NCBI GenBank assembly: GCA_963402885.1
Contig: OY727097.1
Span: forward strand, 7,068,001 to 7,132,000
From: Antedon bifida
Lineage: Eukaryota > Echinodermata > Crinoidea > Comatulida > Antedonidae
Reading direction: 5' to 3'
DNA: 64,000 nucleotides
The position numbers were made by a program, and so were the translations under genes. This document shows positions 5,704 through 61,487 of this stretch, piece by piece. The notes below the pieces were generated by a model. It did not search any database and was not told the origin of the DNA. It saw only the letters and a program-made list of their open reading frames with translations. Each line of letters begins with the position of its first letter. The stretch's first letter is position 1.

Positions 5704-5945
5704 TAATATATTGTTTGAAGGTTTGCGTGGCGAAATCAAATGTTGATACTGTATAAAGTTTGCGGTACACCACGTATCTTAGTTCTGAAAAGAACTGTTG
5801 AGTGCGGTACACCACGTATCTTAGTTCTGAAAAGAACTGTTGAGTCACATATCTTAGTTCTGAAAAGAACTGTTGAGTTTCTCAACAGTTCTTTTCAGAA
5901 CTAAGATACATGGTGTACCGCAAACTTTATATCAACAATAATATA
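5704..5945 (+). mobile_element. Inverted-repeat element family C, copy 1
   Basis: The left part reads TTGAAGGTTTGCGTGGCGAA then TTGATACTG-TATAAAGTTTGCGGTACACCAC; the right end is its inverse, GGTGTACCGCAAACTTTATATC. Inside, a block ATCTTAGTTCTGAAAAGAAC plus TGTTGAG is present three times in direct order and once inverted, giving a strong hairpin. Related copies are at 18438-18655 and, reversed and partial, at 22253-22330. No coding capacity. Confidence 0.75.
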
Positions 5946-10094: not shown

Positions 10095-10475
10095 AGGGCT
10101 TTAAAATATTAAAATACCACTTATTCACAACTAAACCTACGAAAGCTAAAATCTTATATGTTGTTATATTTTATTACATGATTGGCTAAAAACCACAAAA
10201 CGTTGGTGGCCCTTAATTGAAGCATGGATAAATATTCTTTACTTCATGATTGGAGGGAGATTTTGGATTTATTTTCCATTTTATTGTTTACTTATAACTC
10301 ATGGGCTTAAAATAGGTAAATTACTATACCAACATTCAAACTTATACTAAACCTACCAAAACTAAAATCTTATATATTGTATTATATACATAAACAGCTA
10401 AAAACCACATTGGCGGTTCTTAATTGGAGGGAGATTTTTAATATCTTTTGCATTTCATTTATTAAGTATAACTAC
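10095..10475 (+). repeat. Two-copy tandem duplication of about 175-200 bp
   Basis: Copy 1 (about 10095-10295) and copy 2 (about 10300-10475) share ACTAAACCTACGAAAGCTAA-like, AAATCTTATAT, GCTAAAAACCACA and TTGGAGGGAGATTTT blocks in the same order. Copy 1 is longer because it carries the small hairpin at 10223-10248; copy 2 preserves the empty site. Confidence 0.8.
10223..10248. mobile_element. Mini-hairpin element (26 bp) with 7-bp target duplication
   Basis: It begins CATGGAT and ends CTTCATG, an imperfect palindrome related to the perfect one at 13376-13405. It is flanked by ATTGAAG (10216-10222) and ATTGGAG (10249-10255). The second copy of the surrounding tandem duplication has one uninterrupted ATTGGAG at 10423-10429, which is the empty site. 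Confidence 0.75.
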
Positions 10476-10519
10476 GCCGCCAGGTTTTTCAACTTGTCAA
10501 GAGTTGAAACTTACTAATA

Positions 10520-10570: not shown

Positions 10571-13500
10571 TCAAACCATCTCATACTTGTTCATGTTGAT
10601 CATACGAGCTAGACAGCATGTCAGAAAAACACCAAAGACCTGTAAAAATAGATAGATACATATTTGTATAATAATTATACTCTACTGTAGCATGACTGGA
10701 GTTAATTGCAATAAGAAAATTACTCAACAGTTTTGCACCTTTAAACTTGCCATTGCGTAAGTACTAAAGCTCTGTCTACACTATCAAACGTTATATAAAA
10801 CTTTTTACAGAAAAAAAATGTATATGCCCATATATGGACATGACGATGTCATATCACTACCATATTTGGGCACATCACACTTTTTTCAAACTAGTTTGAT
10901 AGTGTAGACAGAGATTAAAATGGAAATTAACTTTCATTTAACATGAATGTCACATAAATTTATATTTTGACATTCCACCTTCCTTGACAGAAAAAAAAAA
11001 GATTACAAAAAGATAAGGATATAATGAACAAAAGTAAAAGATAAAGTTTACAGCAACACTTTGTATGAAAGGAAACATGAGATTTGTTGGTTGGTATGAT
11101 TTCATCTTTTTCAATTTTGAGTAATGCCAATAATCGGAATGATTCACTACAACCAAATAGGCTTTCTCTCACAGAACAGAGTTTATGGAAATATTCCGAT
11201 TTAAATGAATGGTGTCATACCAGAAATGGTTGTTCGTGTTGCATAAAGTACATATATATATATCATTGTTAGGCATATACTCTGGAAACAACATCAGTAG
11301 GCCTACAGTAGGTATGAAAAACAGGGCTGATGTCTTTATAACAATATTTAAAGTTTAAGTTGTGTTTTTTTGTTATGTGTTATACTCACTTGGAAGAAAG
11401 CAAATCCAAGAGCGCTACCACCGATGACGGACATGTTATTTCCGAGAAATCCGCTTACCTTTGAATAACAACCCTAAAGAAGAAAAACTCAAAAGTTAGT
11501 CGTACAATTAAATTCTACCAATTCTACCTACTGTACCTGTTAAATCATTCAATCATTTCAGATATTTTATATGAATTTTGGTGAAATAAAATACATACAT
11601 TTATCGTAATATCGAACACTAGTATACTGTAGATCAGGAAAAGTATAAAGTAATTGTTTGCATTAGTCTAATATTTTTAAACTGTTGTTTACACAAATTT
11701 AGACATAAAATATCAATCATAGTGTCTAGACAAACAACCCCCATTTATTCCTCATTTGTCTACTGTACAAACTTCAATGCAGATCTACATTTAACTTTAA
11801 TTTGGTTGTTTTTTTATCAATAAATAAAAATTTCTCAATTTGATGAGGTATTTGTAACCTACATATTACTTCTTGAATGATTTATTTGGTCATTTTTAAA
11901 TTTTAATCTGTATATCAAATATGTATTATTATTATTTGTAAAATAATTTAATCTCTTCTCTTTAAATTGGCTATTTCAACTTATTTTATCGTCATATAAT
12001 TATCACTTTAATTGCATTAAATTTATTAAATAAAAATCTATAATTAGTAATTATTACTAAATTATTTTTAATTATAGGTAGGACCTATTACATGCCATAG
12101 TAAAAAGCAGTTAGAATGTCTTTGTGTATAGTACTTCATTAGGTAACTATTAGCATCCTATCAACAGGATATTGGCAATTAGAGCACAAATAGACAGAGT
12201 ATATGTGTTTTTATTCAAATAAGAATTAAACACACCTTCGACTTGTTAAAGCTATGTGAAAAGAACAACGATACTCTGTACTGCAAGACTATATTTTTAT
12301 TTGATTTGTGTGGATCTTACTATCACACTTTACGGTATTTGCCAAACAAAAGTGGGTTCAGAATTTCTTTAATGGGGGTAGGCAGTAGGCTAATAATAGA
12401 GAGTGCATAAGACTAGGCCCCAGGTGTTTCAATGTGCACCCCAACACAGAAGCCCCAGGGATTCAACGGTGTAATAATGATTTGACCATTTTAATTTGAT
12501 TATTAATTTAAAATATAAATTGTTTAATTATTAGTAAAGTAGTTTGTCAAAAATAAATAATATATATGATATAAAGAGCTGTAACATTGTGAGGCAAGAT
12601 GGATTCAAGGTCGAGGGGACACCACTAGATTTTCCCCAGCTGAACTCACTGTAATCATCTATCTTAGATCAACAGACTGTGGACATAATAATATTAATAT
12701 TATTCATTGTTATTCCATTCTAAAAGGACATATTGATTTCAAATGACATTTAAGAAAGTCTCTATTTATATTGATAATATCATATTACCGGTAATGTAGA
12801 CTTTAATATTTATTTAATTTTTCATGGCTTATCCTCAGAATATATTCTACACTGCAGTCCACTCAGCTGCATCTTTCCTTCACTTATCTATACTGTATTT
12901 TTATATTCCTTTCTGAGAATATACGTCCACAATTTACATACACATACAGAAGCATTGATTAAGTTTGTTTAATATGGCTATCCTACTTTATACTATAGAA
13001 ACAGTACAGGATTCCATTGGAAACAAAAATACTAAATAAAATGTTCAGAAAGAATGCATTATATTGATAACGTAACTGTATACTGAAAAACTAAAATCAT
13101 AACTTTGTTTGTTGTTTCTTTGGGCGCAGGCAACAACAGTGATTTCTCCCTTGTCCACTTATAAATAAAACATAGTTACATATTTTAAAACCAATGCTTT
13201 AAACCCAACCAAACCAAACCAAAAAAAAACTAAAGTGACCAACTGCCATTACCACCAAAGTACTATACCTACATATGTTTTAAATAAGATAAGAGTTGAA
13301 GATTAAATACTTTATACTACTGTCTTCTCGGAAAACCATAACCAGTCTACACATTTAGCTCATATGGACTTTAAACATGGAGTAAAGAATATTCTTTACT
13401 CCATGCTTTAAAGAACCGTAGTAGTAGTACATTTTTTAGATGAGTAGGGTGTTACCCCGGTGTACTAGTACACATACAGCCACTAATCATAACTGGGCCC

Positions 13501-16500: not shown

Positions 16501-19500
16501 GTTAGGCCTCAAGGTTTAGTGCCCACATTAGGGTTATGGTCAGTAATGAAAGGTTACAGCCTCAAGTAGAGTTACATTAGTGCCACTAGTTAAACATCAT
16601 CATGATGATGCCCAGGCTCTAATTTCTTTAGCTTTTTTTTAATTATCTCTTACCCTTGATTGTAATTTGTCTAAGTAGTGATCATGTTCTGTCTTGTCAG
16701 CATAATCTTCAATTGCTGTTTCAAGTCCTTCACGGAAGCTGTCTTGCAGCTATAAACAAAAACATCAGAATATCAAAAAACAATTTTAAATTTTAAAAGG
16801 CCATATTTCATGTTGTTGTTCACAGGTTACAATATTGTATAAATGAGCATAAACAATGTTCAAAGTTAAAAATTCTATATAACTTACTGGGCTACGGTAT
16901 AAAAACCCTGAAATTCCTGCTGATAGTAGCGATACAAACACTATAAAAGTCAGCACACCAAACTGAAAAGGAATACAAAGTTGGATTGTAATTTGTAACC
17001 GAATTGCACTTTATAGTACTCTAGTCCTAATCCTATACTTTAACACTTAAGTAGACAAAAGTATGATTACGTTTTCAAGTACTGAAAGTTGACAAAAAAA
17101 TTGTGATCAGTGTAAAATATCTTCGTTTAGTATGATATTTTACAATAAAATATATTTTGCAGAGATAGTAGGCCGATTCAATATCATTTAAATATACAAT
17201 GAATTCAACAAAACCTGCCAGAATGGATATTTAAAATACTGTGTAAAATATTCACATTAAGTTATAGTAACCAGTTTATAATACATTTCTGCTTTCAAAT
17301 TGAATATCATGAGGAAAAAGATACAAAAAAACGAAAACAAATAATGTTTTAAAAAAAAATACAAAATAAATGGTTTAAATTCAGCCAATATTTTTTTTTT
17401 CTAATCTTATTTTTGGTCAAAGTTAACTATTATGTGGCATTAAAATGGCATATTCAACAAAAACATTTAAACAAAATTATTTTTTTCAGGGGGCAATACA
17501 TCTTTGAAATTCACATAACTACAGTTATTTAATACCAACTCAGGAAACTGTGTTTTCCACACTTAATAATATATCGTGACCCAAGATGTCCCCTTTATGT
17601 ACTATAAAAGAAGCAAAGCTGACAAGGTGTAAACTTGCGCATTATCATATTTCACCAATTAATATGCTAAAAAATGTCCCCTTACTATAGGCTACAAGCT
17701 GATGAGGTGCACTTGTACATTATCATATTTCACGAATTAATATGCTAAAAAATGTCCCTTTCCTATAGGCTACAAGCTGATGAGGTGCACTTGTACATTA
17801 TCATATTTCATGAATTAATATGCTAAAAAATGTCCCCTTACTATAGGCTACAAGCTGATGAGGTGCACTTGTACATTATCATAAACGTCATGACTTATTA
17901 TGACACACGCATTATTTAACAGCTTTGTGCCTAACATTCTGAACTCTGTGCAGGAAGCAAGCAAGGATTTGAGGAAACAATTAATTGATGGGAAAATGTG
18001 TGTGTCACATGTGTGCCTAACCTCACAGTAAAAGAATGGAAAGGACTTTTAAATTTTTAATTTCGTCAATTTTCAGAAAATATTATTTTTCTTATTTTAT
18101 ACTTTCGCTAGTCAAAAATGATACTGTATATAAAAAGGGGACCATAAAAAGTACTTCTCAGAGGCAGATCAAGGTTTATTTTAAAAGGGAGTGGGGCGGG
18201 GGAAGAGGTGCTAACAATTAATTTAGTCTGTCAAAAATGTTATTTTTATTAGCTGCTAATATTTAATAAATATAGAATAGTGATTATTTATAAGTACAGC
18301 CAATTAACAGTGAAAACAAAACACTGACTTTTAATAATATTACAAAATTTATGAAATACAGAAGTACAGGTTGAATAAAATATACAATGTTTCATTTAGA
18401 GGTCTAAGTAATCTTTTGTGCATCATGTGTATTTTTAATAATATATTGTTTGAAGGCATGGTGAAATCAAATGTTGATATAAAGTTCGCGGTACACCACA
18501 TATATTAATTCCGAGAAGAACTGTTGAGTTTCTTGACGTTTCAATCAATCGTCCTCAGGAGTGATCAAAGCATATTGATTGAAACATTGAGAAACTCAAC
18601 AGTTCTTCTCAGAACTAATATATGTGGTGTACCGCGACCTTTATATCAAAAATAGTTGTAATAAGCAATACAATAAACAATGAAAAAGATGATAATGTAT
18701 TATACATATAATATTGTACGTAAAACAGATTGTTTATAAAAAGTTGAGATTATAATTGGCAAAGGCCTATAAAAGAAGCAAAAATTATATATTGATTGAT
18801 TGAATCAGGCATCACTATAAGCAAGGCTTTAAAATGTGATGTCCTATGTAAGAATTAAAAATTGGAAAAAAAAAATTGACATTAAAAATCTTAATCTATT
18901 GTGGTATATTATAATGTTGGCAGCGGCCATAACAAATTGTCTTACAATACAAGATGCCCATAAAACATCCCTATATTCCTATCTAAATAAACAATTTTTA
19001 TTCTCCACAAACTCAACTTGTTTTTTTTGGTATCAATAAGTTACTCGGTCACAGTACAGTATGTACAATTGAGACAGTGATGACAGAATGTCATTAAATG
19101 TATTTTCCATTTTTTCAATTTGAATACATTGTCACCTTTTCACAGGTGAAATCTGTATAAAAGTGCTAAATTTTCTGTAAATAATGTTCATTCTTTGGTT
19201 AACATCTCCAATTTTCTAGTTACATCTTCGTTTTTCCTTTCCGGTCACAGGTGAGTGATTTGAGCCATTATTTTATTTTTCTTTTGTCTTAGGCCAATGC
19301 CAAGTTTTCAAACTATATCTACTATCACACTGATGATCAACACATTGTCTTTCCTAGGCCTAGTTATAATAACTTATTGATAATTTCCCCTTATTATATT
19401 ATATTCATCATAACTCGGTCAGAGGTGAATTTTGTAGGCCTACAATGCCAAACTTTGCTCATTTCTTTCATTGCGGTATTCTCAGCTTCTTAATGTGGTT

Positions 19501-21953: not shown

Positions 21954-24900
21954 ATGAACAATATCTGCAGAACTAGAGTGCTCTCTGCCCTAATCAGCAC
22001 TTTACATACAACTAAAAATAAACTTGGCAAAGTTTATTTGTCAAGCAGATCTACGCTTAAGTTGACAAATACGAATCTCACCCAGATACATGTTCTTAGA
22101 CAACATTCTACAGGTTTTAGTGTTGTTAAAGATCAGCTCTGCGCACAACATGAGGATTATCTGGAGCTTCCTGTAGAGGGAACTGTGCCACTAAAGATTC
22201 CGTATGTTTGGCTACGAGATCATTGCAGGTACAATTTTTATGACGTCATTTATTATGTTGATATAATAAAGCAAACTTTATATCAAAATTTGATTTCGCC
22301 ATGCAAACCTTTAAACAATATATCATTTATCTTTTCTAGAATATTTCAGTCATTGTATTTTAAACATTTTATAGATACCGTAAATATTGGATTTTAAAAG
22401 ATAGTGCTAGGCAGGTCACTATTTTAATATTTAAACCTAATGCAAGATTTAAAAAGAAAATTAGAAATTGTAAAAGTTAGAATTGTAAACAATTGGATTC
22501 AATAACAACCATTTATAGTGCAAGCAAAGTCAATAAGTTTATTTAAAATGAGGACTTTAGAAATTTGGTCTGACCACCACCTTAAGCTCTGTCTACACTA
22601 TCAACCTAGTTTGACAAAAAAGGGGTGATGTGTCAAAATATGGTAGTGATATGACATCATCATGTCCATATATGGGCTATATGGGCACATCACATTTTGA
22701 TAGTGTAAACAGTGCTTTAGTTGCCCTAATAGTATGAAGCTCAGTTATCAAGTCCTAGTACCTTCAATAATCTTCTAAATGTGTTTTTTATCTTTTTGAC
22801 TACAGATGTTCAGAATGTTACAATCATAAAACAAATCAACGTCTATTTGATTCATTCATTATTGATGTTGATGAAGCTCCAGTCAGTGTTGAAACTTATG
22901 ATGGCGAAATAAAAATTACATGTAAGCTTGATACATTTTCCTTAGATTATGTTATTTTAAACAGTGGCAGATCCAGGATTTGAAATAGTGGGAGGGGCAT
23001 GGCCTAAATGTAGTGAAATGTGCTGAACTTAATTTGATGTCCTATCTTTTTGTATTACAATTTGTGAATTTTAGAGGGGGACCTTCCCCTAATTTGGTTA
23101 TTATTATAATCAATTTGTAAAAACTAAAACTAACTCAATCAATGACATTTGAGTGTATAAAGGATAGGCTAAAATGTTCTTACAAATGAGATAGCAGCAA
23201 ACTTAGCAGCTACATAGCTGCATAAATTTAAGCTTCTTCATTTATTTCTTTTCCATTCATGTAGGGAAAGACACCCATGTAACCACCTATAACTTGTCTT
23301 GGTTGAAGCAAAATTCACCAGGTTCCAATCTACAAGATAGTGTGAAGAAAATATTATGGAATGGTGAACGAATCCAAAAAGAAATGCCAGACGATGTGCC
23401 TTATAAGGACTTTATGAATAATGATGAATCACTTAAAGAAGTGCTCATGAATATTCATAAGTATGGTTTTGGAATTGTTGGAGAGTGCACACCTACTGAG
23501 GCAAAAACGGTGGTAAGTATACTTGGAAATATTGAATACCTGTATGGAATAAATTGTCTGAAACTGATAGGTACACTGTAGATGTAGTCTTTTGGTAGGA
23601 GGACACATCTTCAAGGTCACACACCTTTCTGAATGGTTATGAAATCTACCACAGCACTGATTTAATTAGTTCGGTTTGTGAGCATGTGCAAGTGCCTGTT
23701 CTGCCTCATTGATTTTGTGGTGCCATTTAGTACCATCAAAACCTACTAATTTTAACATGTAGCAATTATACAAATATCATTTAATAGTATTGTACTATCA
23801 ATCAATTTGTAGGAAGTGTCTGAAAGAATAGGTCATGTCCGGCCTACATTTTTTGGAAAATCATGGGGTTTCACAGATAATGAAGTTTTTGACGATACTG
23901 CCTACACAAGTGATGCTATAGGTCCTCACAATGATAATACATATCTGCTAGAAGCTAGTGGGTAAGCATAGAATTTTACTATTATTTGTCTGAGATTCGT
24001 TGGTAAATCATATTTTTTCACCATAGATCTATTTTTAAAAAATAGATTATTAACTCCATTGAAATACAAGCTAAAAAAGCAAGCCACCGTGGCAAAGATA
24101 TCATCGGATATGGCTGTTTCAATCATACATCATTATCTAATCAGACACTGGTGTTTGAAGACACGTCAATGAATTAAGCTCTGTCTACACTATCAAATTA
24201 GTTCAACAAAAAAAGTGTGTTATTCCCAAATATGGTAGTGATATGATATTCTGCCTATACATGGGCACATCACCTTTTGTTGTCACATTAACTTTAGTCA
24301 CAATATGCCTTTATTGCAGCATTATAGCGTATTAACACAAACAAATATGGTGACAATTTTGGAGAGTTCTGCATTTAATTGATTACTAGTAATGGTAGAC
24401 TCATATGATGAGTCTTGGATGCTTGAAAAGAGGAGAAAAATAAAAACTGTGACAGATCTATGACCTGAACCAGGATGCTGGGAATGGTATATAAGCAAGC
24501 TATAGTCGCACAAGATTTAATTTTCAAAAATCTCTGTTTCTGTATTGCAGTATTCAAGTGTTTCATATCCTTCGTCATGATGGGGAAGGAGGTGAAAATC
24601 TTCTGGTTGATGGCTTCAATGCTGCCAGCATTCTTAAACTCAAACATCCTGATTATTATGAAGCTTTGGCTCGAATCCCGATACGAGCTGAATATATTGG
24701 AGATGGTCATGAAGTTATAAGTATTATTAATCTGATTCAAGAAAATAAAATCACAAAAGAGATTGATGCTTTTCGGTGAGTTAAAATTATGCACATTTAC
24801 CAAACAAATAGTTTATTAGTGTTTTTTTTTTAAGTGATTGTGTATCGTATTATTTTGTTTCCATTTTAACAATTGAAAGTGTAGTACTGTATTACGTTTT

Positions 24901-27871: not shown

Positions 27872-30800
27872 ATGGATAGACATCTGTGGGAAAGAGCCGT
27901 TAATTTCCATGGGGCAGATCTAAAGGAACTCGTCCAAAAAGAACAAGGAACTTTCCCAGGTCAGCATGAAGAAGGCTCATCATGTGTTGCATTTGTCGGG
28001 AAGGAACCGCAACTCCAACCAGCAACAGTTGGCTCATGTGTAGGCCTAGGCCCAAGTTCAGAACCGTCGGCGTCTGACTTAAGTGGAAGGAGTGACGTTT
28101 CTGCACGGTAAGTTTAATTACATACCGGAATCTATAGTTTGTTAATAAATTATTTTTTCGTCATAAATTATTTATGAAATGTTGACATTTTTTTTTTTTT
28201 TTGCAGAACATTTTCTGAGAAAATGAAATTGTTCATTGCTAAAAAGGCTGATATGCTTTTTAAGAGTGAAGATTTAGTTTGCTGCGAACCATCGAACACA
28301 ATTTTAGACGACAACCATTACGCAGTTTTACCTCCACTTGAACAATTCATGAAGACTCTGAGTAAAGAAAATCACGAGAGAACTTTCAGTATCATAGCAG
28401 TAAATGATGTAATGATTGGCCGCATCTTAACGCTTAAAGAATTTGGCTTATTTGTACGTTTACTTTGCTTTTGCGGTGAAAAGGAAAGATGGTTTGGCAA
28501 TATCAATGCAGTAGCTTTTCTGCCAGTTGCAGAACTGTGTGATCGTTATTCCAAGAGTGTCAAAGTTGAAGATTTTTCTGTAGGTGACCTGGTCAGATGT
28601 CAAGTGTTAAAACTCGTTCCAGATGCAAAGGTCATAGTGAGTTTGAAGACACAGGAAACGACCAACAGTGACCCTGATTTGTTTTTGGTATAACGTTTAT
28701 ATTTTAATTAAATATTGTTTTATGTTGTATTTAGGTTTCCTCCGTTTCCTGCACTTTATTTTATGTTTTATTCATTTCGGCAATAAACATAAAATAATAA
28801 TTACAAAAACATAGAAATATATATATATATGAAGTACAAGACACGAAGCCAAGGAGAGACAAAAGCATTAAACAAAACGCTGTCACCGGTAAGGTGTGTC
28901 TCTCCAAAACAAAAATTACAAATAACAAGAATATATACTAAAATAACATAGACATTGACATTATTGACAAGAAAACATGTACCTTATTATGTGTTATGTT
29001 ATATAAACATCTACATATTGTTGGAAATAAACATTTATTCAAAAGGTCATCTCAACAAAGAAGCATAACATTTAAAAATTTATATTTAAATTTAAGTATT
29101 CAGTTAAAACTCTATGAAAGCGGTATTGTTGAAAGCCCCATAAATTCAGCCCACACTGACAGGGTCACATATACTGAAAATTCAATTAATCGTGGTCCTG
29201 AATACCTACCAATTTGAATTGAACAAATACATTACACATTTCCCTGCTATAAACATTGGAAATGAATTGGTTTTAATTTCATACTTTTTGCAGGGTTTGA
29301 TAGAGGATTCAGATGTTCCCGTCCATTACAGCAAAAGTCTTGAACTGGATGAAAGCTTTGAAAGTTACGACACCATACTATGCAACTCAACAGGATTTGA
29401 CAACCCATATTCCCTAAACAGTCTTCTTCCTATTCTGGGATTGCAAGGGAATGAGTTCTCATCACTAATGAGAGGGCTACAAAAGTAATTTAGAAAAAGT
29501 AGTTTGTTTTAAATACAGTAGAACCCCTCCTTTGATACACCTTTAGGACACTTTTTTGGGTTCCAAAGCTTTCCACCTAATAGAAGTATCGATATTGAAG
29601 AGTAATAATATATCTTGTGTACAATTTTTTTAATTAAAAGAATGTCGTCTTTCACAATGAATTACAAAGTTTTGACTGTGTCTGAATTTGATTTTGTAAA
29701 TAAATATTTCATGACATTATTTTTTCTTTGAGGTCTGCTTATGACAAATCTGAACTAGCAGAAGGATTGAATTCTGTACAGTCAAGTAAATGGTCTATGG
29801 AAATGTAAGTAGGCTGTTAAGTTCACATCATATTTCTCGGGTACTCGACATAAACCAAGCAACATTGCAAGGCACAATTACGTCATTTTATTCTCACTTT
29901 ACAATTGTATTGACAATTCTTAAAGGGCATCAATCTGTTTTATTGTAGTGTTACGAATAATAACCAGTATTTTATTCTGTTTACTAAATTCAGTGTGGCT
30001 AAGGGAGTGTTGCTATTCAAATCAGGTGATTACATGCAAGCGGTGTCAAAGTTCGACAAGGCTCTTCAGATGTATCCTAAGAATATAGAGGCACTGGTAG
30101 CCAGAGGAGCACTGTAAGTAACACAATATATACAGTCATTATGGTATACATACAGTCCATAATAACATTGAGTTGTTTTTTTTCACAAGCAACTGATATT
30201 TATACTGGTATTTATAGTCAACTGCTGTTTACTAGACCATGAAGGTTTTCGTCTCTTTGGAGATGTCACTACATCTCCAGTATCATAGACAACAGCATAC
30301 ACATGTGGCACCTCCATCATGTTTAGTTAGGCGTACGGCCTATGATAAACACATCACATGTGATACCTGTATCACAGAATTTGCCTATGATACTTTACAA
30401 ATTATATAGTCTCAACAAAATCAGGATGTTTTTAATAGTAAAAAATTAGCCGAGTTACAGCCATTTATTCTTGACATTTTCCCACTTCAGATATGCCAAT
30501 CGTGGAAGCCTTAATAAAGCAATTGATGACTTTGAGAGCGCCCTTAAGTTAAATCCTGTTCACAGAAATGCTACTAAATACCTGACTGAAACTCTGTTGG
30601 AGAATGCTAGAGAGTAAGACATTTAGTTTTATGTAATTCATGGTTTATTCACAGATTATAATTCATATTTAGAAAGCTATCAAGCAAAATAGAGGAAAAC
30701 TATGGAATCGCTTGCCAAATGAATTAAGAAACTGTGATACAATTATTGAGAATCAAATCTCAAAACAATTTGTCCACATTGTTTGATTATTAACTTTCAT

Positions 30801-33800
30801 ATCTTGTATATTGCAGGTGAATGCACTTTTTGTAGTGTTGCAATATATAATATACCGTATTGTAATTATTTACCTTTCTGAGCCATACTTTTGGTTGCTA
30901 GTGACGTTTAATGAAGCTTTAAAAAAAATATATTTTCTATGTTACCAGGATTCTTAATATTCTATGTGTGTTGAGAAAATAAAATATTTTGGGAATTTCC
31001 AGATACAGTATGCTTCATTTCCTGAGGCACCCCATACTTGTAATGTTGCCATTCATGAAGCTTTAATAAAATATATTTTCCATGTTACCAGGGTTCATAA
31101 TATTCTATGTGTGTTGAGAAAATAAAATATTTTGGGAAATTCCAAATATGATTCATTTCCTGAGGCACCCCATACTTGTAATGTTGCCATTCAATTCTTC
31201 AGACTAGCAAATGACAAGGATACTGATGGGGCAATCAAATGTTACCATAAAGTACTGGCAATAGACGAAAACAACACCGAAGCAAGAATCTGTTTGGAAA
31301 GAATACGCATAGACAAGATTAAGGCCTCGGTAAGTATGTAAAACTAATGCAAATGTGCACCTTGTATTGTGTGTTATTTTTTATTTTGACCCAAACGATT
31401 ATAATCACTCACTGTCTTATAATTAGCATACATTATAGACAAATTTCTGAATCGGTTTTGTTGGTCAAAAGAAGCAAATTCTGACAATCAAGAGTTGAAC
31501 TAAAGCCCAATGGAGCCCTCTACTGTGTTACAGTAAATTCATTTTATGACTCCTCTATCTTACTGTAACATATATTTTTAAATAAAAATTGCCTATACTT
31601 TATTAGTTATTATGAGTTAGTTTAATTTTCCTGAAGTGAGGGCATAGTGGAGATAAATAAAAGTAAACTAGTAAGTTGTTACTGATTTAGCCTTTTTTGT
31701 CTTTTTCATGTCAAACTCATTGCTGATATCCTGATGCTGTATAATATAACTACTTGATGGGTATACCAATATTATTTTCTCTGATGTCACCTGTTCTGGA
31801 TTACAACAATCGTTAATTTCCAACCAATGATGGGTATTGTATTAAATATCAAACTTGCCAATCATTTTTCAAACAAATACATCAATCTACATTTTTAATT
31901 TAATATTTTATAATTATTTATTAATAATTTTCTGTCACTATTGTTTACTTTGCTTTTGCAACTCTATGGCATTCTAAACTGATCACTTACCATGTATTTT
32001 TATTTTTTTTATTTTACATTTTGACATTTTGCCAAATTACCATTTAAAAAATCAATCGGTTTTCTTCTATATGATAAATAACATTTAATCTTTCAATTCT
32101 ATATGGGTGTCTGACCTCATACTAATCTTTAAAACATTTATTAATTTCATACTTTTTAACAACATGCTCCTAAACTATTTAAAAACAATGGGTATTCTTA
32201 TGATGTTCTTTTTCTAAATGAATGTTGTTTTTATGATGTCATTCTTTGCATGTGGGGTAGCAACCAAAATCAGCCAAGTCCCCACCACCAGACACAGTTC
32301 TACCAAAGGCTTCCAGTGAGCGGGCTCTACAGAGGTTCATGATGGAGAAGTCGACAGGAGCCCTGAAAGAGTTTCTGAAGCATGATTTATCACAAAAGGA
32401 CAAGTGAGTATTTCATTTAGTGTACTATAAAGACCTACTGTAAGCAATCTAATGACAGGACACTGAGCTTGCCTTGCCAAATACTACTGTACTACTACTA
32501 TTTAATAAATATATATATATATCTAAAAGTTGGATACTAATTGGTATTATTTCATTCTCAAACAGGATAAATAAACCAAGAAAAAAGAAAGCCTCTGCAA
32601 AAATGAAACGACGTAGTAGATCACCTAAGAATAGTAAAAGAAATAAAGGCAAGAAAAGACGAACAAAAAGATATAGTTCTTCTAGCAGCTCTTCAAGTCC
32701 AAAAGGCAGACGAAAGTCAGTAAGATCACGCTCATCAAGTAGTTCAGGGACATCTTCATCGTCATCATCATCATCAAGTGAAAGAAATAGTAGTAGACGA
32801 AAGCGATGGAAATCTAAAGAAAAGGAAAAATTATATAGTAGCTCAGAAGATGAAAAACTAGGGCGTAACAGTAGACGGAAATCAAATACCTCAAGAGATG
32901 AAGATAGAAAAGGGAGAAGTACTAAACAAGATAGAAGGAGTAACAGTAGGCGACGTTTAAGTAACTTGAGTAATGATAGAGAAGAAGATAGAAAGAGAAG
33001 AAATAGTGAAGAAAGAAGGAGTAAAAGTAGACGAAGATCAGATAATTCAAGAAATGAAAATAGAGGGGAAGATAGAAAAAGGAGAAGTAAAGATGAAAGA
33101 AGAAAAAGAAGCAGAAGTTCTTCTGGAAAAGAAAAGCGTTTGGGTAGAAAGAGTTATGACAATTCACCAACAATTAAAAAACAAAAGAATTTAAAGGATA
33201 AACCAAGGAGAAAATCCAAAGAAATTGCATTTGAATGGGTAGTCAAAAATGATGATGCTGAAAAGAGTTCATCAAAGACCAATGCTAGACCTGCAAGACG
33301 AAGCAGATCCCGCTCATCTTCAGTTGAATTTATTTCAGAAATTGTCTTGGGAAAATTGAAGAAAGAAGATCTCGACAAACAGGAAGTAGAGCGAAGAAAA
33401 AAACAAATTCTTGAAGACAAACTTGGAGAAGAACAAAGACAAAGAGAGTTATTAGAAAATCTTAACAAACAAGAGCCATCAACATCTGGTAATTTAAATA
33501 GAGGTCTTGAAGATGATGATCAGAAAATGGAAAGAACAACAGATGAAAGTATGGGCAATAATATTATAAATATTGTCCCTTACTCAGCAAAGGAAAGTTC
33601 TGCATCTGGTCAAGGAAGTACAGATAATCATCAGATAAAAAGACATTGCAGTGGATCCAATTGTGGAACAAGTGATGAGGAAGACGTTGAATTACCAAAA
33701 TCTAAGAAACAGGTAATGGTAAATGATAACCTTAAGACTAATGGGAAAAGTCGACACTGTAGTGGATCCAATTGTGGAACAAGTGATGAGGAAGATGTTG

Positions 33801-36644: not shown

Positions 36645-36809
36645 TTAAGCTCTGTCTATATTATCAAACTTTATATGACAAAAAAATGTGATGTGCCCAC
36701 ATATGGACATGATGATGTCATATTACTACCATATTTTGGCACATCATTACCATATTTGGGCACATCACACTTTTTTCAAACTGGCTTGATAGTGTAGACA
36801 GAGCTTTAA
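36645..36809 (+). mobile_element. MITE family A copy (downstream of TTC14)
   Basis: TTAAGCTCTGTCTATATTAT start, CATATGGACATGATGATGTC and CATATTTGGGCACATCACAC interior, TTGATAGTGTAGACAGAGCT end. Probably within the TTC14 3' untranslated region. Confidence 0.88.
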
Positions 36810-40500: not shown

Positions 40501-43500
40501 TATGGATGGATCTTATATAGATATAAAGTTGTCGTCAGATTTTGACAAAATAATGTGATGTGCCTATATATGGACATGATGATGTTACATCATTACCATA
40601 TTTTGATGCACAATTTCTTCATTTGTCTAAAGCTCTGTCTACACTATCAACCTTTGTGACAATGTGTGCCTATCTGTGGACATGATGATATATCACTACC
40701 ATATTTTGGTATATTACATAGCCTATGTAAATACGTGAACGTGATTGGTTGAAACTGCGTCACGTGACTACCGCTGCGAGGATCGTAAATCGTATATATC
40801 CTCGAGAACGATGATATTGACCGATTAATTTTCGCGTAATTATCGTGTCCTCTGTTATTAAACATATACATTCTCGAGTTCGATGATATTGACTGTGTAA
40901 TTTTCGTGTGGCAACACTCGCGTTCGCCGATAAATAAACAAAAGTCATCTACTGGATTTTAACTCGGGTGGCTCCATCGCAAGACAACGCTTCCATCGCT
41001 GCGCCACGCAGCTTGCTTGAAGAAATTATTCATCTAAACTATTTAAACTATGCATACATAGCGCCCTCATTTGTTATTAGTCCTCCCTAAATGTGATGAA
41101 ACACCGTTTGTGATTGGTCAGTAGTAACCTAGTAACTAGTACGTGCTGAACATCCGGTGATTCGGCTCGCTCCTCGAAGAGAAGACGATGAATTGTTTAT
41201 TCGGCCTACCTGATTATAATATTATTATTAATAGGCTTATTGATGGAAATTCTTCTGTTAATTTAAACGACCTAGGCCTAAGTGAATATTTTATTGCCAA
41301 GGAATCATTAATTAGTAATTATCTGTATATTATTCTTCGCAAGGTAAGGTGTCTAGGCAGGAGGCTTGTTTACATACAATACAAATACTCTAGGCCTACT
41401 ATAGAATAGGAGGCCTAGCCTGGCTTCACCCAACCCAGCAGACTTGTTCTAATCTTGGCTATATAATATAACAGATATCGCCTTTTATATCGGTAAAATA
41501 TAAGATTTAACATCCCCTCAGGATGATATTATGTTCTCGGGGAATTATATATCCCTCAGCTGCCGCTTCGGGATATATATATTCCCTCGAACATAATATC
41601 ATTCCCTCGGGGATGTCAAATCTTATATTTCACCTCTAAGCAGGCAATATCTGTATAATATCACTACCATATTTGGGCACATCACTTTTTTTTTGGTTAA
41701 ACTAGTTTGATAATGTAGACAGATTTTAAGGAGATTTTATTATTTTTATTTTGTTAATTTTTATTTTTTACAAATAATTCCATTTCAGAAGCAACACAAC
41801 AATATGTAACTATTTTCAAAGATATGGATCGTCTTCCACAGCTGTACAACTACTACCACAAATGTCATAAGGTATGCTATCAACTATAAATAACACAGGT
41901 AGAAATACTGTACATTAATTCATTACATCATCGTAACGATCAATGCTAATCGTATATATACACCATTGTGTATAAAGTTTGACAAAAAAAGTGTGATGTG
42001 TCCAAATATGGTAGTGATTCAAATATGGTAGTGATATGACATCATTATGTCCATATATGGGCACATCACATTTTTTTTGTCACGTTGACAAATTTGATAG
42101 TGTAGACAGAGCTTTAGACAAAATAAGAAATGGTGCATCAAGGTCTCAGAATCCTGTGCACCTTTTGGAAGAATAGAGGTGTCCATCTCAGCCCATGTGT
42201 TTTATGGTAGATGCTTCAGTGTGTGACTTTCGTGGGTCCTTAGAGGACCTGATCCCAATTTTCTTAACTGAATGAATGATATAAACAACACATATAGGTT
42301 TAATAAGTCAGTTTAATTGATTTTACTTTTAAAATTATGTGTAATACCACCAAAGTTATGAGAGAATCAATATCATACGTCATTTAATGAAAATCTTAAT
42401 ATTATGTTTTATTAAATGCCTCATGATATTGATTCTCACTTTTAAAATTCTATTCACTTTTATTCCTTCCAAATGTCTAGTCTAATTTACTGCAAGCCTG
42501 GAAGAAGCTGCAAGAGGTAAACAGTGCAAAGTCTTTAGTAGAGTGGCTACCAATGTTTTATGACCATCTGATGGCCACCTGGCATTCAGAGGTGCAGTGG
42601 TGTGAACAGGTGTTTCCGAACCCTGTTAAGGTTGTTGTTGAACTCCTAACCCAGACATTGAGTAGCCTCAAACCGTCATTACCAGCCTGCATGGAGACTA
42701 CTCTAGAAGAGGATACCTTATTAAATTTGATTGAATTAAAAAAGGTAAACAACTTTTTCTTTTTTTACATTTATTATATACAGATAGAATCCTTATTAAT
42801 GGTACACCTTTAGGACCCAACAAAATCTCCCATTAAACAAGGGGAAATATATATGTTTTAACAATAGAGTAACCCCTATTCAAGAATCAATTAATAGATT
42901 GACCTTAGAATAGGGTTTGGTCCTATTAAATCAATTGAGTATACCATAAATTAAAAAAATATCATTTAAATTTATTCAATGTTAGTAACCGCACATTATT
43001 ATTTCGCTAATATATATTTCTTCCATACTTTTTTCAGACTACAGATAGGTTTGCAAAGAACATCGACAGTGCAATAACTACATCCAAGAAAGGTGGGTAT
43101 TTTAAAGTTATCTTAAGCTCTGTCTACACTATCAAACTAGTTTGACAAAAAAAGTGTGATATGCCCATATAAGGTAGTGATATGCTTAAATATGGTAGTG
43201 ATATGACATCATCGTGTCCATATATGAGCACATCACATGGTTTTATAAACATAAAGTTTGATAGTGTAGCTTAAGCCCTTAAATAGATTGTGTGAGGCTC
43301 TTTTTTCACCTATATATATAAATGTTGTTCTCAATTATCCAGATAATTTTCATTGTCATAGATTCTTGTCTCGGCCTTGAAGAGTTTGAACTTGTGAGGG
43401 CGATATATTCACCGTACCTGCCATACTTAGCCCGATATGGTGCACTTGAAGAAGAGTATTTGAGTCAAGAACTTAGTTGTTTGCAGTTGGTAATTAACTT

Positions 43501-46500
43501 AATTTTTTTTAATAATATAATAATAATATCCTGGATTTAAAAAGCGACCTAATGATCAGTCCAACACACTGCTACCACTATCATTATGCTGATTTGTAGT
43601 AAAATCTGTAAACACTTTCTCTTCATTTTCAGGAAAAACGTGATTTGATTGATTGTGCCCAACTTTTATCAAATTCTGTAACCAATATTTTCAAACTGAC
43701 CAATGATGCGGTTGATAGATGTATGATCTTGACCAATGGCTATGATTCTCTTGGGCTCATTCAAGCTGTTAAGGTCTGAATTAAAATACTTGCTATCTAC
43801 AAAAACTAGGCATTTTTAGAAGTAGTAATTAATATATACATATCACAGGCACAGAATTAATTCTAAACTGCCCGGTAATATACTGAAAATTTATTAATTT
43901 GAAAGATTAGGAATGAGAATGAGAAAAAGTCCCCCCAACCAAGATTCAAACCCGGAACCTTCTGCTTGATATGCAGATATCCTAACCATTAGACCAATGG
44001 GACTTTCATGGTATATATATGCAGGAATAATTTTGGATCTGAAAATTTCAACAAATATTTTATTTTTTAACTTTAATTATTGATTTTATTTATATATAGT
44101 GTTTGTTTAGTCGTTATTGCAAGTCATTTAATGCATCCATCAGTAACTTACAAAGTGACTTTGAATCAAGTTCTTCTACATCAAGAGAACTTGGAGAAGA
44201 TTGGACAACTTTCCAGCATGCCCTCAAAGTCATACAAACATGTGGTAAGCTATTTAGCTGATTTTCTTGTAGTTGTATTGTAGGCAAAAATCATGGATGT
44301 AAAGCTCAAACTTTATGTGATGTGCCCATATATGCACATGATCATGTCATAACACTACCATATTTGGGCGGGTGCAGGTCAAGTCGGCCCCAAACCGTCT
44401 CGGCCAAAGTCAAGTCGGCCCCACGTCAAGTCGGCCTCAAGTCAACTCGGCCTCAAGTCAACTCGGCCTCACGTCAACTCGGCCAAAAACTAATCGGTCA
44501 ACTCGGCCACAATAAAGTATGGAACGCAAAAAGTGCTTAATATTATTATGATTATTACTATCCACTCTTTAAAAAAAATTAAGAAATAAGAAAAATACTC
44601 ATACAAAAAAATCATCTCATTGCCGATATGAATAGAAGTACCCGCGTGTTACAAAAACACATGCAGGTACCACATTTTAGTAAATCGAAGACGTAGGCCT
44701 ACGTTCCACCATGGAGCTAAAAATAGCTCCATGGTTCCACCGTTTGGTCATAGAAAAATGATCGTACATATTGTTTTTGTCCATGATTTGCGTTTTTAAA
44801 AAAGGGGAATCCCCCGGTCAGCGAAAACACGTAGCAGTTGTAGATATCGAAATAGCTGCCAAAGGTGCAGGGAGGCGCAGCTACGAATTGGTTTAAGATG
44901 TTGTCGCCTAATAAAATGCATACACTGAAGAAATCTACGCGTGATTCAACCATGGAGTTAACATTATACCTCAATGATTCAACCAAACAATCTTATTACA
45001 CCTAATAAATGTCCTCGCATATCGGACATGTTTATTGAATTTTGACGCACGAACGAACATACGCGCCCACGTACGTTCATCATCATTATTATTGGGCCTA
45101 CAATGTGTTCCTATTTATTATCCAAATGTTCATATTGTAATCATTAATAATAGTATGAATGCTAGCTTATTAATCAATTGTTTGTTATGCGCAATTTGAA
45201 CAATTTGTGCAATTTGAATTTTTATTAAGCGTAAATAAAGGAAAGTTGGTGAAATCCTTCTTATTTTTTTTGCTAAATGTATTATTGTCTAAATATTAAT
45301 ATTCATTAAAAGTCAGAATTATTCATAGGTAAAAAAATATAAAGAAATATTATTTTATCAATCCCCTTCCTTTGCACCTTTTGCATTCCATACTTTAACG
45401 GGGCCGAGTTGACCGATTATTTTTTGGCCGAGTTGACGTGAGGCCGAGTTGACTTGAGGCCGAGTTGACTTGAGGCCGAGTTGACTTGGGGCCGACTTGA
45501 CTTGGGGCCGACTTGACTTTGGCCGAGACGGTTTAGGGCCGACTTGGATCGAAATCTATTTGGGCATATCGCTACCATTTTTGGGTACATCACACTTTGT
45601 TGTCAAACTAGCTAGTGTAGACAGAGCTTTAATAATATACAAATAATGAATGTTTAATTACATTTCAGGTGAATTGCTTCTTGGAATGGAGGATTTTGAA
45701 ATTAGTCTGAGTGGGGCTATTCTCTCGTCAACAGCTGCTCATCAGTGTGAAGCATTCTCCCCCACAGCACTACCACAGAAGTCTAGGTATTATTGCTAGT
45801 ATCTTTTATTTACCTGATGTTTTCTTCTCACAATGAGACCAAGACAGAACCAAGTTCTGCCTTATGTATTCAGTGGCTCCAACACATTTTTAAAATATTT
45901 ATTTGAGCCAGAATCCCACAATGTTTCAGGTAACTTGTACAAGCAGTTGGTAATAAAAACATACATATTCTTGAAAAAGCCTATCATTTATATAAAGTGG
46001 CTAATTAATTTGGTTCCTATTTCTGTAGCCCAGTAATTACCAGTGCGTTCACAGACTACAATTACCTGTTAGAAAACAATCCAACCAAGTACCAGGATTT
46101 ACTGAGACTCATCCACAATATAAAACAAGGTAAAACTAAACTCATTTTTTTCATTCTTATTTCTCAAAATGGAATGCCTTTGGAATGCCTTGTCAAAAAC
46201 TAGCCTAGGCAAGTCATAAGTCTTATAGCTGACGATTCCTTTTATACTGTATCTCCTGTGTGAAACATACTTATTTGATGGCATTTTGATTGTCACAATT
46301 TTCAAGCATGCATTGTGTGTGTGAACAGATGCTTGCATGAAAGATTTATGTTTCATATTGATATACTAATTTTTTTTAAATACTGTTGCTTTCAGAAAAT
46401 AGTTCATCAGTTATGGATGATCCAATGAAAGGTCTTAAGAAGGTCAATGAGCATGCTCATAAGTTTGCATTTGAACTAGTGTTTAGGCAACTTGAAAAAC

Positions 46501-49768: not shown

Positions 49769-52700
49769 TTAATCCATCTTTATCCTCTGACTGGTCATTC
49801 GGTAAATGATTGTGTCGCCAGGATCCATGTACCACATTCCATATGCTGTAGCATACACCACTAGGACTAGAATTACTGACAACCAGAGGATGATGTTGAA
49901 TATTGCAGAGAAATCTTCACTCCTCGCAAAGACATTTAGGCTGTCTTTAGTTGGGTTTTCCTGGGTAGGACAGATATAAAAATATTAACATTAATAAATC
50001 AAACCATGCCAGGATTATATTTTGTTCAATACTACTCCACTAGGCTAATTATTACCAATGTGCAAAATTGCCAGCCCATCTAATTTACATACAAAAATGG
50101 AGATGGAAACCGGTAAAATAAGTTTTAAAACGATCAAGACATACACTAAATAGAACAGGAATGGGTGTATAAATCCAAATAAGTAACTTGATAAATCATA
50201 AGGAACAGATGATCACATTGCTTACAATGCGGGTATTTTCTCAAGTTGCGTTTTAGTGGGAACCAAACTGGATTCAGCACATGCAACACAAGTGAATTGA
50301 CCAATCACACGCAATAGTTTGGGTGATCCTTTGTGTTGTGGAAACTTTAGAGAGTAAAGATCTGTCCACACTATCAAACTTTATGACAAAAAAATGTGCC
50401 TATATATGGACATGATGATGTCATATCACTACCATATTTGGGCACATCACACTTTTTTGTCACTAGCAGTAGGCAGAGCTTTAGATGCAATGTAGGTGTA
50501 ATGGGATGCTACAGTGCAATGGTAACTTACCTCAGTTGCTAGTATAGACCTTCCCATACGATGTTCAAAATGTGGTAGTCTTTGGGTTGTGACAGCCATA
50601 ACTACAGCATTATTGTCGTATAGTTTCATAAATCCACTTGAAAGCTACACAAATTGGTAAAAAAAATATAACAATAAATAAATATTATCTTTATTATTAG
50701 TAGTAATATCTTGATCAGAAGCGAGTATAAGACCATACTCTGGTATAATCCCACCCCAACTTTTGACTAATTTTTATGCAAAATGAGGCACTCTGGTATA
50801 AGCCCACCCATTAATTCGAAGATCTACAGTAGGTTCCGTAATACATTAAATATTGAATATTAAAAAATTGAATACACAGTACATATGCTGTTTTTGACGA
50901 CATGCATTTTTGGATCCTCGGGTATAAGCCCACCCCTCAAACTTGACGTGACTTCATGTTCAAGGGGGGGGTGGGGTGGGATTACACCCGCGTCAGTACG
51001 GTATTATTACATAAGGTTGGCTGACAACATATTTTGGTAGTTCAAGTATAAGAATTCTTGCTACTAATAGTTTATTTTATCTAGGCCTATATTAAAGTGA
51101 AGTTTTCTTAAGCCCTGTTCCCACTATGGTACAATGCAACAGCATATGATGCCAGATGTCCTAGTGGGAACCAAGCTTTACTCACCTGTGATAAAAATGA
51201 TTCTAACACAGCACTTGCTTCTTTAGCTTCAGTAGATTTGGGCCCATGTTGTACTTGTATCGCTCTTAACCCGTACAGGGTAAAGGCCATAGAGTCCGGC
51301 ACGTTATCATCTACCATTGCCTTGTTTTTAGTTAGCTACAAAATTATAAAGGTACTTTAGTAAGTTAGTAAAAGTACACTGGCAGTGCATACTCAAAAAT
51401 GCTATACCACAGAGGAAGATGTGGATAATTTATCAGATAGTCTATATTGCTTGACAACTTTGTAACATGACCACAGTGCTGATTTTGCTACTTTCCCTGT
51501 GAAAACTGTGATAGGCTTCAATAATTCAACATTTAATTACCATCAGGAATAAATTATTATTAGGGAAATGTTACTGCCATGAATACATACTGTAGTACTG
51601 TGACTAAGCAAGGATTAGAACCCAGTCTCATAGATATGGAGTGAGTGACCAAGTGGTTAAGAAAGTGGAACCATAATCCATAGCCATAATGTTGGCATGG
51701 GTTCGCAACTCACTCGCTCAATAGTTCCTAGTGTACACAAAATGTTCACTTTAAAAACCTAGCCATGGACAGAGGAGAGAGCTCCTTAATTGGACGCACT
51801 GACATGAGCCTTGGGAGGAAAACATGTAGTTGAAAAATGTTACATCTAAAGCTCTGTCTACACTTTCAAAGTTATGTGACAAAAAAATGCACATGTATAT
51901 ATAGACATGATGTCATACCACAACCATATTTGGGCATATCAATACCATATTTGGGCACATCACACTTTTTTTATCAAACTAGTTTGATAGTGTAGACAGA
52001 GCTGAAGTCCACATCACCGCGAGCAATGATCTATTGTTGGAATGGTGCTATATACAATAATTTATTTTTATGTTCAGATACTGCGTGCCACTATTCTTTA
52101 GTTTCATACTTACAGCTTCTAGTGCATTCTGGAGCATCTGTAGTTCACTGAAGAACTGTAAATGTGCAGGCTTTGAGATGTTCAAACTCAGGGCTTCATA
52201 GTTATGAATAATTGAATTCTCGCCATGAACAAGACTGGGCAACAAAGCATCTAAACTGTCAGGCATGTTCCCAAATATATTAGGATATTGAGATCCTAAA
52301 CTGAAAATCTGTAAAAAATATGTGTAATGGTTTCATTTCAATTATTTTGTCTCCATAAAAATATGTGTAATGCTTTCATTTCATTTTCATTTCAATTGTT
52401 TTTTCTCCATAAAAATACAATTTACAAAACATGGACAAAGAACAAGAAAAAAACAACACACAAAACAAGGCAGAGACAGGATTCCTAAAAAGCGAACTTA
52501 ATCACTATCTAGTAGATCTCCTGCTTCTTACTGTAGAAACTTAAATACTGTATAGACTTATGAATGATAAACGATCTGACTTTCCATTGTATTGTACGGA
52601 CTACTGCAGAGGCAGTAAGTATCAGGTTTTATTTAATAATCCACATAATTTAATACATCTGTATAGACTTATGAATGATAAACAATCTGACTTTCTATTG

Positions 52701-55700
52701 TAGTACATTGTACAGACTACTGCAGAGGCAGTAAGTACCAGGTTTTATTACATAATGAACATAATTTAAATACTACTGTTATATAATTTAATCACCTTTT
52801 TATACATTATGATTTATTATAATTCTCAAAAAGAAAATCTCAGAATTTATAATGTATTAATTTTAATTTGAAAATGAAAGAATTATTTGAAATGAATTGA
52901 AAAATGCTAATTACTACTACAGATACAAACGATTTTCTTCAAAGAATTTCACATTCAAATGTCATATATCCTGGTTTGAATATTAAATTGGTTTCTTGAA
53001 ATTGTCACATGGGTAGTTACTTTTGGGGAGGGGGGTTTGCGCGCCAGAGAAATGTTATTTCTTACCTGTCCATCAATAGAAGCATCAATTAAAATTGGTT
53101 CCTGAGTCGGAAATGATGTCGAGATGGAAGACATTAAATAATTTGTTTCTACAAAACCAATAGCTTCCTAAAAGAAATAATTATATTCAAAATAAATAAC
53201 AATTCAAATTACTATATTTACAATAGATGTGTTGCTAGACACAAGTTAGTGAAACTAGTTATTTAGTTATTAGGTAATATTAAAGTAAATGAATAAGGTG
53301 TAGTACTACATTTATATACACCACTATACTCTATATACTTTTTTCTCTTTTGTGGCGTAAACACCACTTTTATTGACATTAATATCATTCCATGTCATCA
53401 CCATAAAATCATCGTATTATCTTCATTATTATTATTGTTCATTTCTAATGTCATTACAATTTTATCAACTTCAACAGTAACTTTTTTAAATTTTGTAAAT
53501 TCACTCTATATTCCATATTATTTCCTTTTTTCCCTTAAATTTCTTATATTTTTCTATACTACTATTACAAAAGAAGTTTAAAAAGCAAAACAAATTTAAA
53601 AGACAATTATGCATTAACTGCATCGTTAAACATTTTGTTTCCAACACATCGTTATAACATATTTAATTTCCTTATACATGATTATCATATATCCAATTTT
53701 CAAATATTTTACACAGAAATAACAATTTTGTTTTGTGAGATTTTCATATATTTTTTTGTCATTGTAGAACTCTTGTTTTACAATTTATATATATACACGA
53801 TAAAACAAATAAAAACCATAATAAATCAGTACCAGTACTTTCTTTTCTGATACAATAGTATCAGATTAGAATAATCATATTAGCATAATAGTATGCCTTA
53901 CACCACTATACTTTCATACCACAACAGGGAACATTTTGATTAGCTGATCAATCTGAATTTGGAGAATTTGTATTACATTTTTGTCTATCATGATAATGCG
54001 TAGCATTGGTATTGTGTAGCACTTGGCTATGCTACACTCGCGAAATATATACCCTGAATAGAATACACTTTTTTTTGTAGTCACTTACTTTAGCAATTGG
54101 GAATGAAGCTAAGTGTTTTGGGTTCAATGCACTTCCTTCATTGCTTTCAATATTAATTAAAACACTGCTTTTAGGGCGTCTGAAAAGATTACCAGCTAAT
54201 AGACCGCTCCACTTGACATCCTGTAAAAAAATTAACAAATCTTAAGTCAAGAATATGTATTAATTTTTGTATTTATTCAACTTCTCACACATACATTAGT
54301 GAAGGATAGGACCAACAAGTGGTAAACACCTCTAAAACGGTCCAGTCCCAATTGTACAGTGGCTATGTGTGTACAAGTACACCGTAACCCCCCTACTCAC
54401 CTCAAAAGATGTACTAGGTTCTTTAAAGTACACATGAGTTAGATGTGTACACTGGACCTACGGTACGGTTTATAGTCCTTATCCGAGAAGACTTGTTCTA
54501 CCACCAGAACCAAAGAGCGAGTGAGCCTCGAACTCTTGACGATGTTAGGGCTACATAATTACGGTTCCTCTGTCTTAACCGCTCAGACACTCATTCAAAA
54601 TATCAATATGTATGAATGATACATTAATACTGTACATAATTTCTAAATGAAAATGTCTTCATCTTCATCATGTTGATAATGACGGAACTAGTAGTCAGTT
54701 TGGTGGCAGTCTTCACAGCTGGTTTAGTTTTAATTTTTTTATTCTTATTCTTCTTTTTATTTTTAAACAAAATTATTTATTTTTAAACGGGGAGACTCGA
54801 GTTGGTGGGGTGCTTACCTTTGAAGGAGATAGACCCAATGATAGAGTTAAAACATCTTGAATTTCATCTGCATTGATTGGTCCAGCATTAGAGTCAAATT
54901 GCACAGACTTAGGTGCATTGAGTACAAACAAGGTATTTTCACATAAACCTGTAAAGTAAAATTTGTTAATATATATTAGTTTACTTCACTTTATCATTTA
55001 ATCAGTCTTAAATTCCAAACTACTGTGTGTCAGCCGAGTCCAGATTGGTCGATTGAAATAGTTAAGTTTAAACTGATTTGTTTGACCAACTGGTTGGTGC
55101 AGCATTGTATTTAGGGATAGAATTTTGAGAGTCATTTTAATATTAATTAGGATAATCTTAAACTAGTTTAGTAACAATATTAAATAATCACAATGTGGTT
55201 CATCGGTTCTCCATCATAACATTTCACTTAATGCCCTACTGTAGATAGGCATACAGCTTGCCTACTGTATGCTACTTTGTATAATTAATATAGGGGCTAG
55301 GAAATTTAGGACTAGGCCTATCATGGAGTAAAGAATTTTATTCTTTACTCCATGGCTACCTAGGCCTATATAGCCTATAGGCTATATACAAGATTTTTTT
55401 TATTTTATTTTTTTTATATTTTAATAATTAATAATATTAATATTCATTAAATTAGAACACTTGTATTGACTAAATAAAACCTCACAAGTTTCTTACATAT
55501 ATCCAAACTAGACATATATATAACCAAACCTACAGACCTAAAGTTGTGTAGGCCTCTTACAATGTACGCCGTGTATACTATGGATCGCAGGAAAACCAAT
55601 CGCCTCTCGTCGCCACCACTATCCACCATGCAGCACAAACACATAAACACAACCACATCGCCTAGCTAGGCCTAGCCTACACAGTACGTACATCGTATTT

Positions 55701-61229: not shown

Positions 61230-61487
61230 AAAATTTTCTCAGACAACGGATGTGGATAGAGGTGCTTGTCACCTGTTCATCCCTTTCTTTTCGCTGCCTT
61301 TTATGTTATGTTATGTGCAGTGATAAAGTTTGATAAATAAAACATAAAATAAATACTCTATTTAATTATTACAGTAAATTTGATCACGAATATAGCGCTC
61401 ACCATTGTTGACGAGTGTCGGAATTGTCATCTATATAAAATAATATGTAGTACTATGTTTTTATAATTTTTGCATCACTGTTAAGAT

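Follow-up and report, generated by a model that had tools for sequence, protein, structure and literature searches.

Most transposon families leave few bases or none behind when they excise; the remnant is 2-3 nt for Tc1/mariner elements, and piggyBac leaves nothing. The Drosophila P element has a 17-nt stagger that is described as unusual among the characterised cut-and-paste transposons: its transposase makes the 5' cut 17 bp inside inverted repeats of 31 bp (PMC7776569). Because the cut lies 17 bp inside the repeat, the donor chromosome keeps 17-nt tails, which are the two repeat tips. The same source places the binding sites of the transposase, each of 10 bp, within the 31-bp repeats, and gives a range of 0.5-2.8 kb for natural fly deletion derivatives of P (PMC7776569). 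Among other members of the P superfamily, 1360 duplicates 7 bp of target at the motif GTTNAAC (PMC3276498), and target duplications of 7 bp are likewise reported for Galileo (PMC4168063).

Repair junctions left by P excision are on record from Rad51-deficient flies, where two copies of the 8-bp target flank joined tips that begin CATGATG... (PMC2895639). In our own count from Table 1 of that paper, a sample of Rad51-deficient males dominated by one locus, 44 of 66 isolates have both target copies in full, with a remnant between them. These 44 remnants have a median length of 30 bp, and 24 of them fall within 24-34 bp. The commonest, represented by 14 isolates, is a perfect 30-bp palindrome starting CATG, while 14 others exceed 34 bp through added bases. 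The remaining 22 junctions had either annealed near the outer tips, with loss of most of the tip sequence, or lost part or all of a target copy (PMC2895639).

The window, by which we mean the whole 64,000-nucleotide stretch of crinoid (Antedon bifida) DNA analysed here, holds units of 24-33 bp with CATGGA starts whose layout and modal length are as in the fly junctions. We hold, with a probability of roughly 0.75, that each of the five units described below is the excision footprint of a larger cut-and-paste transposon of the P superfamily, one with inverted repeats starting CATGGAG and with 7-bp target duplications.

Five short units and their target sites

An earlier note on this DNA had pointed to a perfect 30-bp palindrome lying between two copies of CTTTAAA, and direct reading confirms it in all 15 of 15 pairs (unit A, Table 1). 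The two SINE relatives named in that note do have, when aligned, a single unbroken CTTTAAA at the same point, and these unoccupied paralogues support its proposal of an insertion into a SINE with duplication of a 7-bp target. By BLAST, the left flank of unit A matches positions 54455-54422 of the nearer SINE relative and the right flank positions 54428-54358, two matches that overlap by exactly 7 bases. Since both flanks overlap in this way on an unbroken relative, the 30 bp were added to a pre-existing SINE, and 7 bp of it were duplicated. The palindrome pattern CATGGAG-N16-CTCCATG occurs once in the window, as against no occurrence in 100 shuffles. In our reading, unit A consists of the tips of two inverted repeats of a transposon, joined together.

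The whole window was searched for CATGGAG-like ends with matching 7-mers on their flanks. Besides unit A, three units of 24-26 bp (C, D and E) start CATGGA and are flanked by 7-bp repeats, two of them exact and one matching at 6/7. A fifth palindrome, unit B, has the same 15-bp arms as A, and its flanks show no repeat (2/7). Over the set, the target copies around the unit are exact in 3/5, match at 6/7 in 1/5 and match at 2/7 in 1/5 (unit B), and the lengths are 24, 26, 26, 30 and 33 bp, that is, four lengths among five copies, with at least two arm types. The difference between arms (CATGGAGTAAAGAAT in some units, CATGGAGCTA in others) points to at least two source families. Between A and B, the arms are identical over 15 bp and the centre alone differs, and D is shorter and asymmetric, although the units available for such comparison are few. 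Unit D is read as a decayed, asymmetrically trimmed relative of A. The size range of 24-33 bp given in the earlier note corresponds to the units at 44710, of 24 bp, and 55322, of 33 bp; the second of these has no target duplication.

Table 1. Units, their flanking target copies and the unoccupied sites found in the window
Feature	Positions	Strand	Description
Unit A, left target-site copy	13369..13375	+	CTTTAAA
Unit A	13376..13405	.	CATGGAGTAAAGAATATTCTTTACTCCATG; 30 bp, perfect palindrome, 15/15 pairs
Unit A, right target-site copy	13406..13412	+	CTTTAAA
SINE relative, unoccupied site	54340..54480	-	CTTTAAAGAACC unbroken; from BLAST and alignment
Second SINE relative, more distant, unoccupied site	51690..51790	+	CTTTAAAAACC unbroken; from alignment
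Unit B	55322..55354	.	33 bp, 15-bp arms those of A around TTT; flanks 2/7
Unit C, left target-site copy	44703..44709	+	GTTCCAC
Unit C	44710..44733	.	CATGGAGCTAAAAATAGCTCCATG; 24 bp, 10/12 pairs, second inverted-repeat sequence type
Unit C, right target-site copy	44734..44740	+	GTTCCAC
Unit D, left target-site copy	10216..10222	+	ATTGAAG, 6/7 against right copy
Unit D	10223..10248	.	CATGGATAAATATTCTTTACTTCATG; 26 bp, 7/13 pairs ungapped
Unit D, right target-site copy	10249..10255	+	ATTGGAG
Local duplicate of unit D locus, unoccupied site	10341..10480	+	Insertion-free, single unbroken ATTGGAG
Unit E, left target-site copy	44944..44950	+	ATTCAAC
Unit E	44951..44976	.	CATGGAGTTAACATTATACCTCAATG; 26 bp, 9/13 pairs; decayed or of another family
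Unit E, right target-site copy	44977..44983	+	ATTCAAC

Occupied and unoccupied forms of a site, with a single target copy in the paralogue, can be paired for A (through the SINE copies) and for D (through the local duplicate); the window yielded no such empty counterpart for the sites of B, C or E. A stretch of about 840 bp that contains C as well as E is enclosed, at 44380-45546, by inverted arms of 16-bp tandem repeats (of GGCCGAGTTGACTTGA type, 93-96% complementary), and the whole looks like a foldback-type element.

Chance controls and the search for a source element

Pairs of the form CATG...CATG, 16-60 bp apart, number 56 in the window, and the flanking 7-mers agree at 7/7 in two of these and at 6/7 in one. 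By comparison, 200 windows simulated under a second-order Markov model contained two exact cases in total, and none held more than one case of 6/7 or 7/7. A wider set, in which up to two mismatches were allowed in each 7-bp end, ran to 267 candidate pairs of ends. When their flanks were compared for exact repeats of 4-11 bp, such repeats were of length 7 in three pairs, all belonging to the CATGGA-unit family, and of length 5 in two, which are the simple sequences TTCTT and AAGAA; none had length 4, 6 or 8-11. Under a third-order Markov model, 150 windows gave four exact 7-bp cases, with a maximum of one per window, compared with three in the real window. With one flank mismatch allowed, the real window has five cases against a simulated mean of 0.73 and maximum of 3; one of the five, at 34698, lies in simple sequence and was left uncounted. 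A looser scan, for CA...TG ends and 7-bp flanks with at most one mismatch, returned six hits; simulation of 40 windows gave 2.2 on average and reached six in two of them, and the scan is uninformative taken alone. Three further candidates from the scan with up to two mismatches per end, at 23258-23322, 28810-28908 (with exact ACAAAAA) and 34698-34750 were dropped for poor end matches or simple sequence. CATGGAG sites that have no partner (1318, 6079, 15955, 20600, 42690, 46520 and 63083) were not counted.

The window was also searched for an intact element. No two ends of CATGGAG type lying 61-25,000 bp from each other in the window have matching 7-mers, at a tolerance of one mismatch in ends and in flanks, and a scan of 30 of the window's 43 open reading frames of at least 90 aa gave no match to THAP or P-transposase. 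The earlier note had offered, as one possibility, a larger element with CATGGAG ends that had lost its interior; this comes near to our own reading. Six CA...TG candidates of 1.8-4.3 kb have exact 7-bp repeats, yet with 9/14 pairs and no CATGG start they look like chance. In public contig collections, searches of viral_contigs gave 0 and 1 palindromes together with nine single 17-mers, and genome_contigs gave one palindrome. The two palindromes, from viral/bacterial records, show no matching 7-bp flanks and were taken as unrelated. An Rfam scan of the window gave 0 matches. A literature search found no paper on natural genome-wide P-type scars or on a transposon of this size, which does not prove that none exists.

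The window has several further features. The palindromic octamer TAGGCCTA occurs at 35 places, most densely at 56356-56807, where shuffles of the window lead one to expect 0.49. Long hairpins at 18474-18649 and 5761-5922 have a common GGTACACCAC...AAGAACTGTTGAG sequence and are MITE-like. Related hairpin repeats at 36680-36776, 41980-42082 and about 51850-52005, with TGATGTGCCCA / CACATCACACTTTTTT sequence, probably form one MITE family. An array of units of about 21 bp at 61482-61715 is built from AGATATCT palindromes and includes perfect palindromes of up to 50 bp. An open frame of 1315 aa at 32456-36403 is rich in Ser and Arg and has in-frame tandem repeats of 126 bp and 66 bp. ARAGORN reports a tRNA-Asp with an odd anticodon (atc) at 43931-44003, possibly a tRNA-derived repeat. 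Pfam matches in the window include COG7 exons, TauD exons and the RNase H domain of a retroelement reverse transcriptase, with renin-receptor and tetraspanin matches just under the curated cut-offs; these matches suggest that the DNA is from an animal.

Proposed origin of the units and its alternatives

The 7-bp duplications, the CAT(G) tips and the target motif all point to the P superfamily, which on these sequence features is the probable source. The target sites are CTTTAAA, GTTCCAC, ATTGRAG and ATTCAAC. They fit the 1360 motif GTTNAAC at 18/24 positions when left copies are used, or at 17/24 with the other copy of D, a fit for which random 7-mers drawn from the window give a P of about 5e-6 to 8e-6; this P value is post hoc, the motif having been compared after the sites were seen. 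The three exact sites by themselves fit at 14/18 positions (P 8e-6). The Galileo-type target GTANTAC, the other of the two P-superfamily motifs compared, fits poorly, at 11/24. In target choice, the putative source transposon is most like the 1360/Hoppel branch.

We propose that the units arose in three steps. A transposon would have entered a TTNAA-type site and duplicated 7 bp; the insertion itself is shown by the flanking repeats and by the unoccupied paralogues of A and D. Transposase would then have excised the element by a cut in one strand about 17 nt into each inverted repeat, and each chromosome end would thus have retained a 17-nt 3' tail bearing the repeat tip, as the biochemistry of the Drosophila P element suggests. 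End joining of the tails would finally have followed, whether bluntly, through short microhomology or with the addition of a few bases, and would have left the joined tips, 24-33 bp long, flanked by the two target copies. The layout of the units and the repair junctions of the fly both suggest this last step.

Several details of the units agree with such a route. Two 17-nt tails ending in ATAT, if annealed over those 4 nt, yield by computation exactly the 30 bp of unit A, given the tail sequence that we infer for its source; the tip of an A-type source would accordingly read CATGGAGTAAAGAATAT. Unit D would combine a left tip that had been trimmed with a right tip of the full 17 nt, and would have mutated afterwards. 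Shared arms with differing centres in A and B, along with the asymmetry of D, are what end joining would be expected to produce. The unit lengths are compatible, though only compatible, with a 17-nt staggered cut, and the presence of decayed units beside perfect ones points to repeated events over time.

Two observations count against excision scars. Five units in 64 kb, in the company of no intact copy, are dense for scars, and unit B has no flanking repeat (2/7). The longest scar recognised in the window is also only 33 bp, whereas 14/44 of the fly scars exceed 34 bp, and 22/66 of the fly junctions had lost a target copy or most of the tip sequence. Scars may nevertheless outnumber live copies if jumping was long-lasting and the breaks were mostly closed by end joining, and a long history agrees with a set in which perfect units (A, B, C) stand beside decayed ones (D, E).

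A different account makes the palindrome of 24-33 bp itself the mobile unit, a micro-MITE with CATGGAG tips by which a transposase from elsewhere would recognise and move it. Several copies do have 7-bp duplications, no intact source was recognised in the window, and the arms of A and B are identical over 15 bp. The copies nevertheless vary in centre and in length (24, 26, 26, 30 and 33 bp), which, together with the lack of room for the internal binding sites of P transposase, makes us regard this account as unlikely. For a duplex of 30 bp, which is much shorter than the persistence length, the pairing of both ends in one complex is physically doubtful. The smallest P-type elements in the papers cited here are 205 bp in the mosquito (PMC1562414) and about 500 bp in the fly (PMC7776569). 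The earlier note had in mind just such a transposable unit of 24-33 bp, a view that gives way here to one in which size and layout are those of an end-joining product after P-type excision; that a transposase of this animal moves 24-33 bp units made of two joined ends seems to us improbable. If such units do move, they are far below the cited P-type sizes and need end pairing on a duplex too short to bend.

Alternatively, the scars might come from a transposon that likewise duplicates 7 bp and cuts far inside its ends but belongs to another superfamily (hAT, Mutator-like, Dada or one yet undescribed). The transposase was not seen, and only duplication length, terminal CATG and target motif assign the source to P, which leaves some room for this account. 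We give it a small chance: the 17-nt stagger of P is described as unusual among the cut-and-paste transposons characterised (PMC7776569), the excisions of Tc1/mariner and piggyBac leave 2-3 nt and nothing, respectively, and the fit to GTTNAAC favours 1360. Dada was set aside as a source because those of its elements whose ends can be defined occupy small RNA genes, and because its U6 and U1 families have no terminal inverted repeats.

It is very unlikely that the units are extreme internal deletions of P-type elements produced by interrupted gap-repair synthesis and not by the direct joining of 17-nt tails. Most repair products of wild-type flies do reflect incomplete synthesis followed by end joining (PMC2895639), but interrupted synthesis usually copies beyond the outer 17 nt, and in none of the units found does recognisable repeat extend beyond about 17 nt on either side. 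Chance palindromes or hairpin-type replication errors, conceivable in a window rich in other palindromes, have a negligible probability, given that the units have CATGGAG tips in common, that exact 7-bp duplications occur and that two of the sites have an unoccupied paralogue.

Significance and comparison with known P-type elements

Excision scars of this kind are familiar from the laboratory fly, and our literature search found no natural series of them in another animal. If the footprint reading is correct, tiny dispersed palindromes with flanking duplications form a readable archive of transposon departures, one likely to be overlooked by repeat libraries that were compiled from intact copies. 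Every scar would store a target site, a transposon tip and the mode in which the break was joined, so that past jumping rates, and the ways in which germ-line cells join broken ends, would become measurable wherever an animal has P-type elements. The footprint reading would further suggest that a relative of the fly element, in a distant animal, likewise cuts far inside its ends. It would also call for caution before such units are listed as the smallest known transposons.

Several P-type elements can be compared with the putative source. The zebrafish element Pdre2 has repeats starting CAT, as here, but these are 13-bp repeats of other sequence, and its duplications are of 8 bp (PMC10983969). 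The P-MITEs of Anopheles gambiae are likewise short non-autonomous P relatives with target duplications, but they are 205-2450 bp long and duplicate 8 bp (PMC1562414). Galileo of Drosophila has 7-bp duplications in common with the units, and differs in its GTANTAC target and its long inverted repeats. The Drosophila element 1360/Hoppel has both the 7-bp duplication and GTTNAAC in common with them, a likeness in the target site. The tips of the fly P element start CATG, as here, though the element duplicates 8 bp and not 7. The footprints of P in Drosophila, which were induced in the laboratory in Rad51-deficient flies and are not natural scars fixed in a genome, have 8-bp target copies where the units have 7 and come from another repeat sequence. 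They are the same as the units in their two complete target copies, in joined tips that start CATG, and in a modal scar length equal to that of unit A.
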